Positions 818-25,455 of a DNA stretch of 35,238 nucleotides are shown here, in pieces. Source of the stretch: Bacteroidales bacterium (lineage in GTDB: Bacteria; Bacteroidota; Bacteroidia; Bacteroidales; UBA932); NCBI GenBank assembly GCA_009784635.1, contig WRBG01000002.1, positions 1-35,238 on the forward strand. Reading direction: 5' to 3'. Made by a program: the position numbers and the translations under genes. A model generated the notes under the pieces. The model saw only the letters and a list, made by a program, of their open reading frames with translations, had not been told where the DNA came from and did not search any database. Positions within the stretch are counted from its first letter, which is position 1. Each line of letters opens with the position of its first letter.

Positions 818-3244
818 TTAGAATTTAAATTGGAAACTCAGAGACGGGATTATCGGAAACAGGCTGTATTGCATGAATCTAAATTCGCCCCATCTATCTT
901 TTTCTATATTTATATGATACGGATTTTTGCGGTTGTAGGCATTGTATACGCTCCATACCCAGCGACTTTCGCCCCACTTCCTTTGCTTGATAAAGGAGAG
1001 GCTTGCATCTAAACGATGGTATGGTTCCATGCGGTATCCATTGCGTTCGCCGTACTCAATATATTGATATGTGAGTCCCGAAGCAGCCCCTGTAAGAATC
1101 GGATGATTCACATCAAATACGCCTACGGGCAGCGTGATGCAGTTGCCCGAACTGTATACCCAAGTAATGGAAACATCAATGTCGCGCTTCTCTCTTTTGA
1201 TACGCTGCATCAAAACGATGCTGAAGTCGTGGCGGCGGTCGTATTTGTAGGGGAAACGCTTGCCGTCGTTCAATTCGTCAAAGTGACGGTCTGACCACGA
1301 CAGCGTGTAGCCTGCCCATCCCGTAAAACTGCCGCTCTTTTTCTCGGCAAACAACTCCATGCCGTAGCTGCGGCCGGTGCCTTGCAGGAGCTTTTGCTCC
1401 CAATCCTCGTCAATGTTTAAGAAGCTGGAGCCTTCTCTGTAATCCAGCACATTCGTTAATGTTTTGTAATATCCTTCGAGGCTTATTTCGTAATCTTCCC
1501 TATGGTTGTGAACAAATCCCAGGGCTATCTGGTCCGCTTTCTGCGGACGCAACAGCTCGGTGGCAGGAACCCACAGGTCTCTGGGAAAACCTCCGGCGTT
1601 GTTGGTCAGTAAGTGTACGTATTGTGCCATGCGCGAATAGGAAGCTTTGGCGGAAAGTTGCGGGCTAATCAAGTATCGGGTAGAGATACGCGGTTGCCAT
1701 ACGTTGTAGAAACTGTCGCCCATGCCGTATGCCGACCAGTGTAGCCCGACGTTGGTTTTCAGACGCTCGGTCAGCCGGATATCATCCTCTACATAAACGC
1801 TGTATTCCCATGCGTAGCGTTTGGAGGCGCCAAAATCGCGGCTTCCTGTCGTATCGCGGAGGGAAACCCTGCCCGGATTAAACGTGTGGTAAATGGCGCC
1901 GGCGCCAAAACGAACATAATGGTTAGGAGACGGAATATAATCGAACGCAATCCTCCCGCTCCGGTCCTGTATGCCATAGTTGTTGCGCAACTCGGAAAAG
2001 TTATGAACGGGAACTGTTTGGCCGCTGACGGAATGTGTTTGTTCACGGTCGTTTTTTCTACTGAAATTGTCGCGAAATCGGCTATAAGCCAGCGCAGTAT
2101 TGACGAACAACCGGTTGGTAATCACATAATTCCATCGTAAGGTTGTCATGAAGTTGCCCCATTGCATACTAAAATCCATCTTGTCGGTACCCGAAATGAT
2201 ATTGTCGTGTTCGTATTTGTATTTGCCGATTCCATACATCTTGTCGTCTCCCATGTAGGCGCTGAGGTAGATTCGGCTTTTATCCGAAAATTTGTGGTTG
2301 ATTTTTGCGGTCAAGTCGTAGAAATAGAAGCCGGCTTTGGAGATTTCGCCCTGCATATTTATGTGGGCATCGCTTCCCGGGTCTTCTGCCATGCTGCTTA
2401 ACGCACCAAGGGCGGGTCTCATCAACAAGTCCGCGTACGTGCGCCTGCCCGACACAATGAATGATGTGCGGTCTTTTACAATAGGGCCTTCCAAAGTTAG
2501 GTTGCTCCACAGCAGTCCAATGGCGCCCTCGCCGCGAAATTTTTGCATATTGCCCTCTTTCATGCTGATGTCGAGTACAGACGAAACACGTCCTCCGTAC
2601 CTTGCGGGGAAACCGCCCTTGTAGGCTTCCATGCTATTGATGGCGTCTCCATTGAACATCGAAACAAAGCCCAGCAGGTGTGATGTGTTGTATATGGGCA
2701 CTCCATCCAGCAAAACCAGATTTTGGTCCGGACTGCCGCCACGTACATGCAATCCGGTGCTGCCCTCATTGCCCGACTGTATACCGGGCGTCAGTTGCAA
2801 AGCCCTCATCACGTCTGTTACGCCCAAAGCGGCGGGAAGTGATTTTATCTGCGCTATAGGCATGCTTATCAAGCTCATCTGTGAACGCTCCCCTGTACGC
2901 AATGCGGCGGTAACTATAGCTTCCTGCAGGTGATGTCCTTCTGCAAGGTTTAGGTTAATCACCGTGTCGCGGTAAAGCTGGAAATGGAAAACTTGCGTGC
3001 GGTAGCCCATATACGAATATACAAGTTCCACCCTGCCTTCGGGCAGCGTCAAGCTGTAAAAACCAGCCCGGTTGGTAGAAGCAGCTGTCATATTGGTTTT
3101 ATCGTACACCGTGGCGCCAATCAGACTTTCGCTGCTCAAACTATCTGTCACGTAGCCGCTGATGGTATGCCGCGGCGCCCTTTGCGCAAAAGCGCCGAAC
3201 ACCAAAACAGACAATAATACAACAGCGCATAGATATTTCATCAT
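818..3244 (-). CDS. TonB-dependent outer-membrane receptor with N-terminal carboxypeptidase-regulatory-like domain
   Basis: Signal peptide, ISGYVTDSLSSESLIGATVYD..., plug motif LQLTPGIQSGNEGSTGLHVRGGSPDQNLVLLDGVPIYN, C-terminal aromatic SLSFQFKF. Confidence 0.93.
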   Translation of the reverse strand: MMKYLCAVVLLSVLVFGAFAQRAPRHTISGYVTDSLSSESLIGATVYDKTNMTAASTNRAGFYSLTLPEGRVELVYSYMGYRTQVFHFQLYRDTVINLNLAEGHHLQEAIVTAALRTGERSQMSLISMPIAQIKSLPAALGVTDVMRALQLTPGIQSGNEGSTGLHVRGGSPDQNLVLLDGVPIYNTSHLLGFVSMFNGDAINSMEAYKGGFPARYGGRVSSVLDISMKEGNMQKFRGEGAIGLLWSNLTLEGPIVKDRTSFIVSGRRTYADLLMRPALGALSSMAEDPGSDAHINMQGEISKAGFYFYDLTAKINHKFSDKSRIYLSAYMGDDKMYGIGKYKYEHDNIISGTDKMDFSMQWGNFMTTLRWNYVITNRLFVNTALAYSRFRDNFSRKNDREQTHSVSGQTVPVHNFSELRNNYGIQDRSGRIAFDYIPSPNHYVRFGAGAIYHTFNPGRVSLRDTTGSRDFGASKRYAWEYSVYVEDDIRLTERLKTNVGLHWSAYGMGDSFYNVWQPRISTRYLISPQLSAKASYSRMAQYVHLLTNNAGGFPRDLWVPATELLRPQKADQIALGFVHNHREDYEISLEGYYKTLTNVLDYREGSSFLNIDEDWEQKLLQGTGRSYGMELFAEKKSGSFTGWAGYTLSWSDRHFDELNDGKRFPYKYDRRHDFSIVLMQRIKREKRDIDVSITWVYSSGNCITLPVGVFDVNHPILTGAASGLTYQYIEYGERNGYRMEPYHRLDASLSFIKQRKWGESRWVWSVYNAYNRKNPYHINIEKDRWGEFRFMQYSLFPIIPSLSFQFKF

Positions 3245-3283
3245 ACTTCAATTAATATTTGTTTCTTATTCTTAAAAGCAATA

Positions 3284-3319
3284 AGAGGGCACAAAATTAG
3301 GCATAACTCCACGCCCTCT
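3284..3319 (-). terminator. Hairpin between RiPP precursor and TonB receptor gene
   Basis: AGAGGGC (3284-3290) pairs with GCCCTCT (3313-3319); minus-strand continuation TTATTGCTTTT is T-rich. Confidence 0.5.
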
Positions 3320-3375
3320 CATAATTACATTGGATTGAATACCTAAAGCAAAGTCAATCATCTTGCAGTACATAT

Positions 3376-3627
3376 TTAATGACACGTTCCATCAGCATCA
3401 TTTTCGCAGTCAGCATACGTTTGAGGTTCGGCATCACTAAGCGCACCACTGGTGGTGCCACCGCCCCCAGTGGGACAGGAGTTGCTTGGACAGCCATTAT
3501 TGCACCATGAAAAGCCCATACAACCCCAAACACTCGTAATTATCGTCCCGCCCTTTACTTGACTCAGATGGTTATCGTCTAGACTTGAAATCTGTTCCCT
3601 CTTTAAAACTAATTTATTCCTATTCAT
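3376..3627 (-). CDS. Bacteroidetes GG-leader RiPP precursor (lanthipeptide-like), 83 aa, six Cys in predicted core
   Basis: Leader MNRNKLVLKREQISSLDDNHLSQVKGG followed by 56-aa core TIITSVWGCMGFSWCNNGCPSNSCPTGGGG...DCENDADGTCH; adjacent LanC gene. Confidence 0.8.
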   Translation of the reverse strand: MNRNKLVLKREQISSLDDNHLSQVKGGTIITSVWGCMGFSWCNNGCPSNSCPTGGGGTTSGALSDAEPQTYADCENDADGTCH

Positions 3628-3770
3628 TTTATTTATTTTTTCTTGTTTATACTGTGATTATTATAGATATGACGACCACAGACATCGTAATCTCTGCCTT
3701 TTATGCCAAGACACATAAGACAGAGGCTGCATGAATATTTGAAGGTGAATAAGTGCCATAATAGTACCGT

Positions 3771-4976
3771 TTAGATTAAAAACACGGATTCGTCCCAATG
3801 AATCAATTTGGGATTTTGAAAACTAAGGAGGGTTGAACCTACACCCGAAATGCCGACAAGCAGGTCAAGCGGATGTTCTTTATTGCCCTCTGTGAACACA
3901 TACCCGACAACTCCCTCCGTTTCATTACCCAGCAAAAGGGTCCTTTTTAACCAGTAATTGGCTGCTTCCTCAAAGTAACTATTTTGGGTTTCATAATATA
4001 ATCTATTAAATATGTGCGTAATACCTGATGCTCCATGACAAAATCCTGCATCTTTTACGCGAGTTTCTGTATCGTTTCTCCTTTGAGCAACCTGTTCCAG
4101 CATGCGTATTGCATCAATCTGCACCGGAAAAACCGACGACACGTGAAAAAGAATGTATAAAGCAGTCAAGTCTCCGTAGCACCAAGCAAGCCGCGACATG
4201 TTCTGCTTACTGTCAAACTGCGATATTTTATCATATTCTATCGAAAAAGGAAAATATGAAGGAACTCCCGAGCCATTCATGTGGTCAAGCATGAAGGATA
4301 TATTTTCCCGCATCATTTCACTGCACTTTTGAGGTAAAATGTGTTGTAAATAACACTTATACAGAAAAAATAATGTGCCCGGTATTCCATGCGCCAATCC
4401 AAAATCTACTATTTCTTTTTTACTTTGCGGTCTTACCCGTCTCCATGTTAGATAGCCTCCCACATTTTCCCTGTCATGATATAGCCCATTTATTATACTT
4501 TCAACAATACTGAAATTTCCCCTTTTTAGAAAATAAAAGCCAATACCAACCGCGTGATGAAGCTGGTCATATTCTTTTTTTTCTATCATTAACTTCGCGT
4601 ATTGCAAAAGAACCTTGTCAATATCAGACAAGTAATCATCTAAATCTATCTCTATTAAATCATTTTCCTTCAAGTAAATAATCAACCATGCAAATCCGGC
4701 TATGCCGGAACAGTAGGAAACCATAGCTGCTTTTCCTGTATAAATCTTTTCGTTTATTAGACCAATTGTTTGATTCAACTTATCTAAAAACCTTGCATCA
4801 TCCGAGTTTCTATAAAATAAAGACAACAATAACCCCACTCCCGCCAAACCATCCAACAAGCCAACCTTGTCGGTATAATCCAAGTTACAACTCAACAGAT
4901 ATTCGCCTATTTGCTTTTGCTTACGATTAACCTGTGGCAGAAGCTCGTTGTCAATTTTTATAGTCGCTAAACACAC
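3771..4976 (-). CDS. LanC-family lanthionine synthetase C-like cyclase
   Basis: LanC motifs GLAHGIPG, AWCYGD, FCHGASG (Cys, Cys-His zinc ligands). Start in track is GTG; exact start uncertain. Confidence 0.92.
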   Translation of the reverse strand: MCLATIKIDNELLPQVNRKQKQIGEYLLSCNLDYTDKVGLLDGLAGVGLLLSLFYRNSDDARFLDKLNQTIGLINEKIYTGKAAMVSYCSGIAGFAWLIIYLKENDLIEIDLDDYLSDIDKVLLQYAKLMIEKKEYDQLHHAVGIGFYFLKRGNFSIVESIINGLYHDRENVGGYLTWRRVRPQSKKEIVDFGLAHGIPGTLFFLYKCYLQHILPQKCSEMMRENISFMLDHMNGSGVPSYFPFSIEYDKISQFDSKQNMSRLAWCYGDLTALYILFHVSSVFPVQIDAIRMLEQVAQRRNDTETRVKDAGFCHGASGITHIFNRLYYETQNSYFEEAANYWLKRTLLLGNETEGVVGYVFTEGNKEHPLDLLVGISGVGSTLLSFQNPKLIHWDESVFLI

Positions 4977-5136: not shown

Positions 5137-6048
5137 TTACTCCGTCAATTTTCCTGTTCTTATCGCGTATCGTATTGTCCACTCTCCTACGCCTTCCCGT
5201 ATTGCAATAGAATTGACGCTACAACCTTTGTTCAACTCGTCCTGTACACGCAAGAGCTTTTCCGGCGTCATCGGTCGCCGCTGCTTCTTGGGTTCCGTAT
5301 TTTTTTTCTGTTTGGGATGATTGGGATAATCAAATATCAACCGATGATTAAATGCATAAATAACGGACTCAGTTATAGAATTGGTTTTCAGTTTTTTGAA
5401 AATAGCCCTCTTTCTACTCTGGTAAGCATGATACGAAATGCACAACTTGTTGGCTGCCTCCATGCCTATTTTCCCACGATGGACCAATCTCAGCACCCCC
5501 TTTTCTTGCTCGCTAAGCATCGGTATCCTCCTTTTTATCCATTCTTTACTTTCCAACACAAATTCTTCATAATCTACACCATCAGTATAATGGGCGCACA
5601 GACACCCGGATTTATTTAATACCGAGCTTGACAGCAAGCACAAGCCAAACTGTAGCCGTTTATTGACAAATACAGGTCTTAATTTGTGGTAAATCATCAT
5701 GTGCCTTGATTGATGCTTCATGCGGACGGTAAATGAAAAATAATCAAGAGCGCCCAAGTCATTCATATCAGACATGCGCTGCCGGATAACATCCAGCGCC
5801 TCCATCAACAACAGCAGGTCGTCTGGATGAATCACTTTCGAGAAAAAATTGTATCCCAACGACAAGACTTGTTCTACGGTGTGGCCGCAAAGAAAGAGCG
5901 GGTTGTTAGCCACAAAGTAGAAGCCTCGTTTGGAAAAGTCAATCACATACATTGCCTCCATACTGATGGCTGCAAAGTCGTTCATACCGAATGGTATCTG
6001 GTCGTTGAGCGGTGCAACAAAATCTATTTGAGAATCATCTATATTCAC
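5137..6048 (-). CDS. PAS-like sensor / LuxR-type HTH regulator with additional C-terminal HTH
   Basis: N-terminal PAS-like region (FFSKVIHPDD), central LSEQEKGVLRLVHRGKIGMEAANKLCISYHAYQSRKRAIFKKL, C-terminal MTPEKLLRVQDELNKGCSVNSIAIREGVGEWTIRYAI. Confidence 0.7.
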   Translation of the reverse strand: MNIDDSQIDFVAPLNDQIPFGMNDFAAISMEAMYVIDFSKRGFYFVANNPLFLCGHTVEQVLSLGYNFFSKVIHPDDLLLLMEALDVIRQRMSDMNDLGALDYFSFTVRMKHQSRHMMIYHKLRPVFVNKRLQFGLCLLSSSVLNKSGCLCAHYTDGVDYEEFVLESKEWIKRRIPMLSEQEKGVLRLVHRGKIGMEAANKLCISYHAYQSRKRAIFKKLKTNSITESVIYAFNHRLIFDYPNHPKQKKNTEPKKQRRPMTPEKLLRVQDELNKGCSVNSIAIREGVGEWTIRYAIRTGKLTE

Positions 6049-20617: not shown

Positions 20618-22369
20618 TTATTTCGATTTGTCAAAATAGTGTGTATGCAATAGATGATGCGCTTTTTCGCTCAGCGGACTCCCAAGAAATTCTTCGTACA
20701 ATTTCTTTATGTACGGATTTTCGTGCGATTTGCGGACAGGCTTTTGGGCGTCTTCGCGATACAGCGCCTCATGGCGTGCTTGGAGGATGTGGGACTCTCC
20801 ATGGTGGAGCGGTTGCCCACCACCGCCGATACAACCGCCCGGACAGGCCATGATTTCGATGGCGTGGAAGTTGTATTGACCCGACCGGATTCCGTCGAGC
20901 AGTTTGCGTGCGTTGCCCAATTGATGGGCAATACCAATATTGATTTTGGTGCCGTTGAAGTCAACGGTAGCCATGCGAATCCCCTCTAAGCCCCTAAGTT
21001 CACGAAAATCTACCTGCTCCAATTTTTTGCCTGTAAATATCTCATAGGCAGTACGTACTGCGGCTTCAATCACCCCGCCGGTTGTTCCAAAAATAACGCC
21101 CGCGCCGGTAGATTCGCCCATCGGATTATCAAATTCCGCATCGGATAAAGCCTTAAAATTGATGTTGGCCTCGCGGATAAGGTGGGCCAATTCTCTGGTA
21201 GAAAGGGCAAAATCTACATCGGGATTGCCGTTGACTTTAAATTCGTCTCGTTGACATTCGTATTTCTTTGCCAAACAGGGCATAATCGATACTACCACCA
21301 AATCTTCGCGTTTTACGCCTAATTTATCGGCTAAATAAGTTTTGGCCACTGCTCCAAACATTTGCTGGGGAGAACGGGCGGTTGAAGGCACGTCGAGCAT
21401 GTCGGGATAGTTGTATTCAAAGAAGTTCACCCAAGCCGGACAGCAGGAGGTTAAAATCGGAAGTTTCACATTCTTGTCGCCCTCAAGGAACTTGGAAATA
21501 CGTCCCAACAATTCCGCTCCTTCTTCCATGACGGTCAGGTCTGCGGCAAAATCGGTATCGAATACATAATCAAAGCCCATTTCTTTTAATGCAGCCGTCA
21601 TTTTTCCGGTAACCAAAGTACCGGGCTCCATACCAAATTCTTCGCCCAAGGCAGCGCGAACAGCCGGAGCGGTTTGTACAATCACCGTCTTGGCAGGGTC
21701 TGCTAAGGCTCGGATTACCTTTTGGGTTTGGTCTACTTCTGTTAGGGCGCCGGTGGGGCAAACCGCCACGCACTGTCCGCAGAAGGTACAGGGCGAGTCA
21801 ATCAAATCCCGCTCAAAAGCCGGAGCAACCACCGACATGAATCCGCGGTTCACGGCGTGAAGGGCGCCTACGGTTTGGATTACATTACAAGCCGTTTCGC
21901 AACGACGACACATGACGCATTTATCCATATCGCGGATGATGGAAGGCGACATATCTTTGCGATAGGTTGACATTTCGGCGTTTTCTACCGAGTGGATTTC
22001 ACGGATGCCCAATTGCACCGACAGGTCTTGCAGTTCGCAACGTCCCGATTTAGGGCAAATCAAACAGTCTTTGGGATGGTCCGAGAGAATCAGTTCCAAT
22101 ACCGTTTTGCGGGCATTGAGCACTCTGGGAGAATGGGTTTTAATGACCATGCCTTCTGTGCAGGTAGTTACGCAGGAGGGCACCAAATTACGGCGTCCGG
22201 CTACTTCCACCACACAAATCCTGCATCCGGCAGGATGATTTTTGAATCCCACCGCTTCTAAATTCATATAGCAGAGCTTGGGAATGTCAATGCCTATCTG
22301 CTTGGCAGCATCGTACACAGTAGTATTAGGAGCTACTTCTACGGGTTTTTTATCTATCGTAACTTTCAT
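20618..22369 (-). CDS. hydA: [FeFe]-hydrogenase catalytic subunit A
   Basis: N-terminal NuoG-like 2Fe-2S, ferredoxin clusters (CVMCRRCETAC, CTFCGQCVAVCPTGA), H-cluster motifs TSCCPAW, MPCLAKKYE, ACPGGCIGGGGQP. Confidence 0.96.
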   Translation of the reverse strand: MKVTIDKKPVEVAPNTTVYDAAKQIGIDIPKLCYMNLEAVGFKNHPAGCRICVVEVAGRRNLVPSCVTTCTEGMVIKTHSPRVLNARKTVLELILSDHPKDCLICPKSGRCELQDLSVQLGIREIHSVENAEMSTYRKDMSPSIIRDMDKCVMCRRCETACNVIQTVGALHAVNRGFMSVVAPAFERDLIDSPCTFCGQCVAVCPTGALTEVDQTQKVIRALADPAKTVIVQTAPAVRAALGEEFGMEPGTLVTGKMTAALKEMGFDYVFDTDFAADLTVMEEGAELLGRISKFLEGDKNVKLPILTSCCPAWVNFFEYNYPDMLDVPSTARSPQQMFGAVAKTYLADKLGVKREDLVVVSIMPCLAKKYECQRDEFKVNGNPDVDFALSTRELAHLIREANINFKALSDAEFDNPMGESTGAGVIFGTTGGVIEAAVRTAYEIFTGKKLEQVDFRELRGLEGIRMATVDFNGTKINIGIAHQLGNARKLLDGIRSGQYNFHAIEIMACPGGCIGGGGQPLHHGESHILQARHEALYREDAQKPVRKSHENPYIKKLYEEFLGSPLSEKAHHLLHTHYFDKSK

Positions 22370-22382
22370 ATTATCTATCTAA

Positions 22383-24245
22383 TTATTGGATGATTATTGC
22401 ATTGAATTTACATTTTTCAAAGCAGGCGCCGCAACGGATACATTTATCTTGATTGATGAGGTGCGCCAGTCGTTTTTCTCCGGTGATGGCATTGGTGGGG
22501 CAGGCTTTGATACAGGCCGTGCAACCGATGCACTTTTCCGGAATGATAAAATACTGTTTCAATGCCTTGCATTGGCCGGCGGGGCACTTTTTGTCCCGCA
22601 CATGGGCTAAGTATTCGTCGTAAAAATAATCGAGGGTCGAGAGTACGGGGTTGGGCGAGGTCTGGCCCAATCCGCAAAGCGCCGTGTCTTTAATTACGAA
22701 GCTCAGATTGCGCAAATAATCCAAATCTTCTTCTGTGCCCCTGCCCCTGCATATCCTGTGCAACAACTCGTGTAAGCGTTTGTTTCCTACGCGGCAAGGC
22801 GAGCATTTTCCGCAGGATTCCTCCACGGTAAATTCAAGGTAAAACTTGGCGATGGCCGGCATACAGTCGTCTTGGTCCATCACAATCATGCCTCCCGAAC
22901 CCATCATCGAGCCGGCGGCAGTTAGGTTTTCGTAATCAATAGGCGTGTCCAAATGCTTTTCAATCAGACAGCCACCCGAAGGGCCTCCCGTTTGCACGGC
23001 TTTGAACTGTTTGTCGCCTTTGATGCCGCCTCCGATTTCAAAAATAACTTCGCGGAGGGTAATCCCCATAGGCACTTCTATCAAGCCCACATTATTGATT
23101 TTTCCGGCCAATGCAAATACCTTGGTACCTTTGGACGTTTCTGTTCCGATGCTTGAAAACCATTCGTGGCCTTTAAGGTAAATCGCCGGCACATTGGCAA
23201 ATGTTTCTACATTGTTCACGTTGGAAGGCTGACCCATATAGCCCGATTCGGCGGGGAAGGGCGGTTTTACGGTTGGTTCGCCACGCTCGCCTTCCATAGA
23301 ATGAATCAGAGCTGTTTCTTCTCCGCAGACAAAGGCGCCGGCTCCGTAACGCAATTCAAGCTCAAAAGCAAAACCGCTTCCAAAAATATCTTCGCCCAAA
23401 AAGCCGAAGTCTCGCGCCTGCTCTATGGCAATTTGCAAACGCTTGATTGCCAAAGGATATTCTGCGCGGATATACACCAAGCCTTTGGACGCCCCAATAC
23501 AGTAGCCGCAGATAGCCATGGCCTCAATCACAGAATGTGGGTCGCCTTCGAGAATCGAACGGTCCATAAAGGCGCCGGGGTCTCCTTCATCGGCATTACA
23601 TATTACGTATTTTTGGTCGGCCTTATTATTATAGGCGTATTCCCATTTGAGGCCGGCGGGAAAACCGCCGCCGCCCCGACCTCGAAGTCCGGACTTTTTC
23701 ATAATGTCTATGGCCTCGACTTGGGACATCTTGAGCACTGCGCCCAAAGCGGCATAACCATCTCGAGCAATATATTCGTCCATGTTTTCGGGGTCAATAA
23801 AACCGCAGTTGCGCAGGGCTATCCGGATTTGTTTATGCTTGGACTCATCTTTTGCATCAATCGTTTGATAATCAACTGGCAAAATGCCATTAATCTCCTC
23901 TCCCCGCTTGATATATTTGTCCACAATTTCAACGGCCTTTTGGGTATTTACGTAGCCGAACACTACCGGCTCGCAGCCGGGTTTATGCACTTCCACAGTC
24001 GGTTCGGCATAGCAGTAGCCTACACAGCCGACTTGACTTACCACAGCATTTAGGTTTTCCCTTTCCATTTTTTCGAGAAAGGCATTCATGGTCTCACGAG
24101 CGCCCGAAGCAATGCCGCAAGTAGCCATACCTACTTTGACTTGCACCATACCAGCGTCGTCGTTACTTTTTGGGTGGAGCCGGGGGTTGTTAACTACCTG
24201 CTGTTTCCTATTGAGCAGGCCTTCCAGCGACCTAATTTTATTCAT
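22383..24245 (-). CDS. hydB: Electron-bifurcating [FeFe]-hydrogenase subunit B (NuoF-like)
   Basis: GLRGRGGGGFPAGLKWE, NADEGDPGAFMDR, ESCGKCSPCRVG, C-terminal 2x[4Fe-4S]; start at MNKIRSLEGLLNRKQQ (24245), not 24554. Confidence 0.95.
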   Translation of the reverse strand: MNKIRSLEGLLNRKQQVVNNPRLHPKSNDDAGMVQVKVGMATCGIASGARETMNAFLEKMERENLNAVVSQVGCVGYCYAEPTVEVHKPGCEPVVFGYVNTQKAVEIVDKYIKRGEEINGILPVDYQTIDAKDESKHKQIRIALRNCGFIDPENMDEYIARDGYAALGAVLKMSQVEAIDIMKKSGLRGRGGGGFPAGLKWEYAYNNKADQKYVICNADEGDPGAFMDRSILEGDPHSVIEAMAICGYCIGASKGLVYIRAEYPLAIKRLQIAIEQARDFGFLGEDIFGSGFAFELELRYGAGAFVCGEETALIHSMEGERGEPTVKPPFPAESGYMGQPSNVNNVETFANVPAIYLKGHEWFSSIGTETSKGTKVFALAGKINNVGLIEVPMGITLREVIFEIGGGIKGDKQFKAVQTGGPSGGCLIEKHLDTPIDYENLTAAGSMMGSGGMIVMDQDDCMPAIAKFYLEFTVEESCGKCSPCRVGNKRLHELLHRICRGRGTEEDLDYLRNLSFVIKDTALCGLGQTSPNPVLSTLDYFYDEYLAHVRDKKCPAGQCKALKQYFIIPEKCIGCTACIKACPTNAITGEKRLAHLINQDKCIRCGACFEKCKFNAIIIQ

Positions 24246-24369
24246 ATTAATCTTTGTTTTAAAAAATTTAGGGCCGTAAAGGTAGAGATTTTTTTTGTAA
24301 CGGCAAAAAATAAAGGCCACCCGGTGGGGGTGTAGATTCAACAACCGGTACCGGGCTTCGACAATACGG

Positions 24370-25455
24370 CTACCGGAGTTGAGGCGTTTGCGAGGGAGGG
24401 CTGTAGGTGTAATCCCTTGGCAGCATATCTCCAAGCCGCTGTTCACCCATACGGCCAAAGAACATAAGGTTGTCAATGGTGTCGGGATTCCCAAACTCAT
24501 CCACAGAAAATCGATTGGTAAGAAAAACAAGCTCAGAACGGAAGTTTCTTTCATCCATAATGTTGATAACTCCGTACACAGGTCCTTCCATCACCCTGTC
24601 GTGACTGCGCCTTAAATTGGTATGGGGAATAATCAACACTGTACGCCGAGGCGATGCACTGGTGATTACAAAGTATTGCTCCGTATCAATCTTGGTAAGT
24701 CTATTGAAAATTCTGAATTTTGATTCTTCTAATGTATTGTCAACAAGATTTTTAAAAAAATATCTCGAAGAACGAAGATGGGTTTCATCCCTCCGCGTTT
24801 TGAACCTGATGTTGTAGGGGCTTTGGTCAACAAAGGAGGACGTTCCTTTGAATGAAACACTGATTGCCTTTTCCATACTCAACGTATGTTCGGTATATTG
24901 AATGCTAAAACTGCGCAAATCAAAAGTAACGCGATAAGCCAAATATCTGTTTTCGACAATAATAGGTTCAAGGGAATATCCTGTTAACGTATTGGTGGAA
25001 CGACTATAGCTCAATACTATATCATCTTCGTTTACAATGATGCAAGATTGACCGGCTGCGCTCATGCCCAAAAACTGTTCCTTGAATACTTTCATCTTTG
25101 CTTCGCGTGGGAACCACTCCCGCTCTGCTACTACTCTGGCTTCCTGAAGTATATTTGTTTTTTCCCTTAGAAAGAACGCTTTTTCAAGGCGCTCGAACGG
25201 GGGCTTAATGACCAAGGATTCGTATGACAAATGACTAAATATCAAGTCAGCATTCATTGCCTGATTGACAACAAGTCTAAAATTTCCGTCTCTATCCGAA
25301 GTGGTAATAGTGGATGTTCCATCTAAATAAATAACTACTCCGGGAATTGTTTCCCTTGTTCTTGAGTCATATACGGTGCCTTCTAAAACTTGGGCATGTA
25401 TCTTGCAGAACGTCAAGAAACTGATAATACAGATAACTATCTTCGTGGAAATCAT
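24370..25455 (-). CDS. Exported protein with carboxypeptidase-regulatory-like N-terminal domain
   Basis: Signal peptide MISTKIVICIISFLTFCKIHAQ; VLEGTVYDSRTRETIPGVVIYLDGTSTITTSDRDGNFRLVV. Confidence 0.8.
   Translation of the reverse strand: MISTKIVICIISFLTFCKIHAQVLEGTVYDSRTRETIPGVVIYLDGTSTITTSDRDGNFRLVVNQAMNADLIFSHLSYESLVIKPPFERLEKAFFLREKTNILQEARVVAEREWFPREAKMKVFKEQFLGMSAAGQSCIIVNEDDIVLSYSRSTNTLTGYSLEPIIVENRYLAYRVTFDLRSFSIQYTEHTLSMEKAISVSFKGTSSFVDQSPYNIRFKTRRDETHLRSSRYFFKNLVDNTLEESKFRIFNRLTKIDTEQYFVITSASPRRTVLIIPHTNLRRSHDRVMEGPVYGVINIMDERNFRSELVFLTNRFSVDEFGNPDTIDNLMFFGRMGEQRLGDMLPRDYTYSPPSQTPQLR

Follow-up and report, generated by a model that had tools for sequence, protein, structure and literature searches.

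A LanC–precursor pair near a contig end as the probable front part of a split-LanB class I lanthipeptide system in a Bacteroidota-type bacterium

Does a lanthionine cyclase gene that adjoins a Cys-rich GG-leader precursor, with no dehydratase gene on the same stretch of DNA, belong to an ordinary class I lanthipeptide system, or does its product catalyse another kind of reaction? The question is raised by a locus in a window of 35,238 bp, which is the entire contig C2 in the assembly of a Bacteroidota-type bacterium. This assembly is a draft (1.87 Mb, 215 contigs, 90.6% complete), and the genome (G000) was examined by profile searches and by reading of selected stretches. A sequence-only reading had left two possibilities, a dehydratase acting in trans or encoded left of the window, and a LanC performing a different thiol-based reaction. 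The analysis presented here indicates that the window very probably holds the leading portion of a conventional class I lanthipeptide system of the Bacteroidota type, in which LanB is split and the leader ends in GG. Regarding the position of the dehydratase gene, a LanB just left of the window has roughly an even chance and a LanB acting in trans a somewhat smaller one, while loss of LanB or other chemistry shares the small remainder.

The precursor and the cyclase

The features of the locus are collected in Table 1. On the minus strand, a gap of 143 bp separates LanC from the precursor that adjoins it. The precursor leader, MNRNKLVLKREQISSLDDNHLSQVKGG (27 aa), reaches 27.5 bits against NCBIfam NF038153 (lant_leader_L1a), and since the curated cut-off of 22 is passed, the precursor ORF is not due to chance. 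The same leader, MNRNKLVLKREQISSLDDNHLSQVKGG, aligns with those of precursors from complete clusters, and the core is rich in Ser, Thr and Cys. Both genes proved real and lie at the coordinates first given, and the class-I-like GG leader and the 56-aa core with six Cys are as first read from the DNA letters. The hairpin beyond the precursor has a 19-pair stem, a 4-nt loop and the tail TGCTTTTAAG; the fold of the region is modest (z = -1.84).

Table 1. Genes and elements at the lanthipeptide locus (window positions)
Feature	Position	Strand	Description
Putative lipoprotein, truncated by contig end	1..783	-	ORF open at left end of window
TonB-dependent receptor with CarboxypepD_reg-like domain	818..3244	-	PF00593, PF07715, PF13715
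Hairpin with T-rich tail, directly 3' of precursor	3281..3322	-	Putative terminator or attenuator
LanA precursor	3376..3627	-	83 aa: 27-aa L1a leader ending GG and 56-aa core, 6 Cys
LanC, class I lanthionine cyclase	3771..4976	-	401 aa, GTG start, every zinc ligand present
LuxR-type (GerE) regulator, immediately upstream of LanC	5137..6048	-	PF00196; weak PAS-like match

The precursor also matches TIGR04149, the radical SAM GG peptide model, at 20.0 bits, and contig C72 of the same genome encodes a TIGR04148 maturase (443 bits, cut-off 300). These two matches would suit a substrate of a radical-SAM RiPP pathway in place of a lanthipeptide precursor, an explanation that is nevertheless the least probable of those weighed. 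The class I leader model is above its cut-off, whereas the radical-SAM target model is below its own (25 bits); lanthipeptide precursors of complete clusters show the same sub-threshold TIGR04149 match; and the C72 maturase has a GG peptide of its own nearby. On C72, this separate radical-SAM RiPP cluster (L119, positions 488-679 and 2033-3295) comprises a GG-leader peptide with a Cys-rich core (CCCCSCGC) and the TIGR04148 maturase. The left end of C72 matches a fragment of the window regulator.

The window LanC scores 131.8 bits against PF05147 and covers model positions 5-346 of 350, and its profile matches include NisC and other solved LanC-type proteins (8byk, LanC-like). Its zinc ligands, C266 (AWCYGD) and C313-H314 (FCHG), are invariant across an alignment of 12 LanCs, in agreement with the initial description of a complete, stand-alone LanC bearing all three ligands. 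The protein is divergent: its identity to relatives does not exceed 32% and it forms a long branch in the LanC tree, which counts against its assignment to an ordinary system. Since this branch is unplaced and the sequence too divergent, the tree gives no decision between a dehydratase in cis and one in trans. A second 'LanC' of the genome, on contig C1, is an M15-peptidase-like/LanC-like fusion. Because it lacks the zinc ligands, it was rejected as an additional cyclase of the ordinary type.

Contig ends and the dehydratase genes

By profile, the window contains no LanB, LanB-C or C39-ABC gene, and genome-wide searches placed none on C2. The earlier observation that no LanB, LanM, C39 peptidase or exporter is visible in 35 kb is thereby confirmed, but the window is a whole contig. 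Its left edge, 3.4 kb past the precursor, is the contig end, so that a missing LanB beyond it says nothing. Similarly, a dehydratase gene downstream of the precursor would be off-contig, because the receptor gene and the cut lipoprotein gene fill C2 to its end. The receptor may have a role in the lanthipeptide system; the lipoprotein ORF matches no Pfam or NCBIfam family above cut-off. Elsewhere on C2, window positions 20618-24554 carry genes for an iron-only hydrogenase and a NuoF-like subunit, which belong to ordinary metabolism and are unrelated to the lanthipeptide locus, and a tRNA-Asp (GTC) lies at the right contig end (35163-35237).

A genome-wide search for LanB and C39 genes, proposed along with the initial reading, gave a divided result. 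Three LanB-C tails were detected with the LanB-C profile (C1:37260-37433, C83:8052-8225 and C83:3712-3975), together with three PF03412 (C39) matches. LanB-N was found in this genome neither with Pfam PF04738, for which no control gave a match, nor with a profile built from six relatives, which did find it in sister genomes. This absence of LanB-N from the whole assembly, set against the success of the same search in sister genomes, weighs against the preferred reading.

The tails at C1:37260-37433 (E 2e-25) and C83:8052-8225 (E 1e-24) comprise the C-terminal 58-61 aa of a PF14028-type protein. Both lie at right contig ends; over 156 bp they show 98.7% identity, and their terminal 123 bp are exactly the same. 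Contigs that stop at the same base within a shared exact stretch are typical of an assembler meeting a repeat that exceeds its word length, and 123 bp would equal k-1 for an assembler k of 124. As both tails end with their contigs in this shared 123-mer, an assembly break and not a gene truncation is indicated. The simplest reading is a LanB cassette that occurs twice or more in near-identical form and was lost from the bin. Judging from these terminal sequences, an intact LanB-C gene likely lies behind the C1 and C83 tails.

Two observations temper this explanation. The first is the lack of any sequence overlap: a search with the left end of C2 against the other contigs returned none, and none links C2 to C1 or C83. 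The second is the third LanB-C copy (C83:3703-4113), a true fragment that lacks its front and is located between lipoprotein genes and leuS; cassette copies therefore also decay, and the tails at the ends of C1 and C83 could be fragments too. The locus around this copy (L053, G000:C83, 3703-6750) places the LanB-C fragment beside two tandem PKD/Big_2/FGE-sulfatase-type lipoprotein genes, 78% identical in DNA. The truncated copy, as a sign that cluster parts decay in this very genome, would also fit a decayed cluster, of which LanB was lost in the lineage and LanA and LanC are remnants. Such decay is improbable, given that the LanC and LanA frames are intact, that catalytic and leader residues are conserved, and that the other two tails point to a break in the assembly.

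Furthermore, candidate genes for export are present on C1. Downstream of its LanB-C tail and in the same direction, this contig encodes a transglycosylase, the M15-peptidase-like/LanC-like fusion, a glycosyltransferase, a C39-ABC protein and HlyD (L006, 12169-19437). Compared with the exporter of the complete cluster in G002, the C39-ABC protein, with HlyD beside it, gives 1475 bits. Together with the LanB-C tails at two other contig ends, this matching exporter pair favours the first of the two original possibilities, in which the dehydratase either acts in trans or is encoded beyond the left edge. In a genome of the same genus (G002:C102, L055), an intact LanB-C gene is followed by a transglycosylase-amidase fusion; peptidoglycan enzymes recur beside LanB in the genus.

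Lanthipeptide loci in related genomes

In the suggested neighbourhood analysis of LanC homologues, complete split-LanB clusters were recovered from genomes of the same genus and family. In one same-genus genome, a single contig (G001:C12) encodes LanC, precursor, LanC, LanB-N (765 aa), LanB-C (286 aa), C39-ABC and HlyD, and in another (G002:C27) a precursor is followed by LanC, LanB-N, LanB-C, C39-ABC and a partial HlyD. Two family members (G026:C2 and G065:C19) likewise carry the full set of cluster genes. In G002:C27, LanB-N (497 bits against PF04738) and LanB-C (222 bits against PF14028) are separate proteins, and the dehydratase is therefore split in this lineage.

Across the 393 genomes of the order, LanB is present in 17 of the 18 genomes other than the present one with a LanC of full length (at least 330 bits), compared with 26 of 393 overall (counts from tables). 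Thus, LanC presence predicts LanB almost perfectly in the order. The sole exception, G343, encodes C39-ABC, HlyD, two precursors and two LanCs on a contig that breaks off about 115 bp beyond the second LanC. Given this co-occurrence and the contig stop in G343, no arrangement is established in which a LanC of this type lacks a LanB altogether. In addition, when public genome contigs with LanC were scanned for close relatives, only three distant loci emerged, with LanB downstream of LanC in all three.

These counts bear directly on the second original possibility, that the window LanC works entirely without a dehydratase partner, catalysing a different Cys/thiol reaction on the precursor. The divergence of the protein and an assembly without LanB-N would agree with this proposal, as would a PF13575 search for a LanM-type dehydratase that returned no match, a weak result because no control gave a match either. 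Several lines of evidence oppose it, and it is very unlikely: LanB-C tails and C39-ABC/HlyD genes occur in the same genome, LanC and LanB co-occur almost without exception in the order, the zinc site is conserved, and the leader family accompanies LanB clusters.

A LanB encoded at a distance deserves more weight. LanC and the precursor, perhaps with the receptor genes, could form a unit of their own, one of several scattered precursors served in trans by a single split LanB elsewhere; the chance of this is real, though a little short of even. Two relatives display loci of this kind. On a 125-kb contig of one (G255:C65; L109, 6811-10633), a precursor, an S41 peptidase and LanC lie inside the contig and LanB is on C71; in the other (G198:C120; L110, 5870-7575), a precursor and LanC lie inside the contig and LanB is on C186. 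No LanB was present in the stretches read at L109 and L110. On G255:C71 (L113, 5490-8434), eleven tandem L1a-type precursors are situated between LanC and LanB. A second L1a precursor is also encoded in the present genome (L075, C30, 13743-14006), with four core Cys and behind a SusD-like gene, and neither LanC nor LanB was found within 13.7 kb downstream of it. These LanB-free loci of relatives and the C30 precursor make a LanB shared in trans realistic, and the hairpin after the window precursor would suit a short LanC-LanA transcript.

On the other side stands the locus nearest to the window by its regulator (G002:C196, same genus), which consists of a regulator 46% identical to that of the window, LanC, precursor and an S41 peptidase, with LanB about 3 kb downstream. 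The order regulator-LanC-precursor is common to both loci. Moreover, in G082 (L035) an outer-membrane protein gene sits between LanC and LanB, a layout that C2 ends too early to show, and in G104 (L028) an apparent CarboxypepD_reg-type outer-membrane protein gene, identified by inspection, starts directly after LanC and is cut by the contig end. Both arrangements make a receptor gene behind LanC and LanA compatible with a LanB further on. In G104 and G122, the contigs that separately carry LanC and LanB do not dovetail.

Proposed maturation and comparison with known systems

In an ordinary class I system of the split type, as preferred here, the dehydratase would be encoded in the same genome, with the LanB-N gene and most of the LanB-C gene absent from the assembly; near-identical copies of the cassette break contigs, which would account for the loss. 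We infer from the neighbouring evidence that an intact LanB exists in this genome and acts on the window precursor, and the ring chemistry and export route are predicted in the same way. Ser and Thr of the precursor would be dehydrated with glutamyl-tRNA by the split LanB, that is, by a LanB-N glutamylation protein and a separate LanB-C elimination protein. In the LanC family, cyclisation takes place at the zinc site, while C39-ABC proteins with HlyD cut the leader after GG and export the product. The zinc site of the window LanC would accordingly add Cys thiols to the dehydroamino acids, forming (methyl)lanthionine rings, and a C39-peptidase ABC exporter could then cut after GG and export the product with HlyD; genes for both are present in the genome, and their pairing with this precursor is presumed. 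An antimicrobial role would be the default guess for a lanthipeptide product.

Altogether, the locus would add one member from an uncultured lineage to the class I lanthipeptides with a GG leader and a split LanB. The case is relevant to apparent orphan LanCs near contig ends in general, as a LanB cassette that occurs repeatedly can interrupt a draft assembly; an orphan-looking LanC by a contig end is therefore no proof of dehydratase-free chemistry. Because relatives carry LanC-precursor satellites without a nearby LanB, the idea that several precursors share one LanB can be put to the test.

Compared with the complete same-genus clusters (G001:C12 and G002:C27), the window has in common LanC and an L1a precursor, which are there joined by LanB, LanB-C, C39-ABC and HlyD. 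In contrast, the LanCs of these clusters are about 30% identical to that of the window, and no TonB receptor follows their precursor. Genome mining published in 2020 described Bacteroidetes class I LanAs whose leaders carry the motif LxLxKx5L and end in GG, with C39 proteases close by (PMC7268733), and the LanB family as dehydrating Ser/Thr using glutamyl-tRNA (PMC7268733). Split LanBs, as in pinensin, also feature in that account (PMC7268733); the likeness to the split LanB of the pinensin cluster is drawn from this description. The window contig differs from the described type in lacking LanB, and its LanA core and LanC are divergent in sequence. Shared with this type, to which the leader family NF038153 belongs, are the leader motif LVLKR-x5-L (R for K), the GG site, the stand-alone LanC, C39-ABC and HlyD in the same genome and a split LanB in the genus. 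The window locus thus fits the description of Bacteroidetes class I lanthipeptides, with R for K in the motif, and is of a kind already known.
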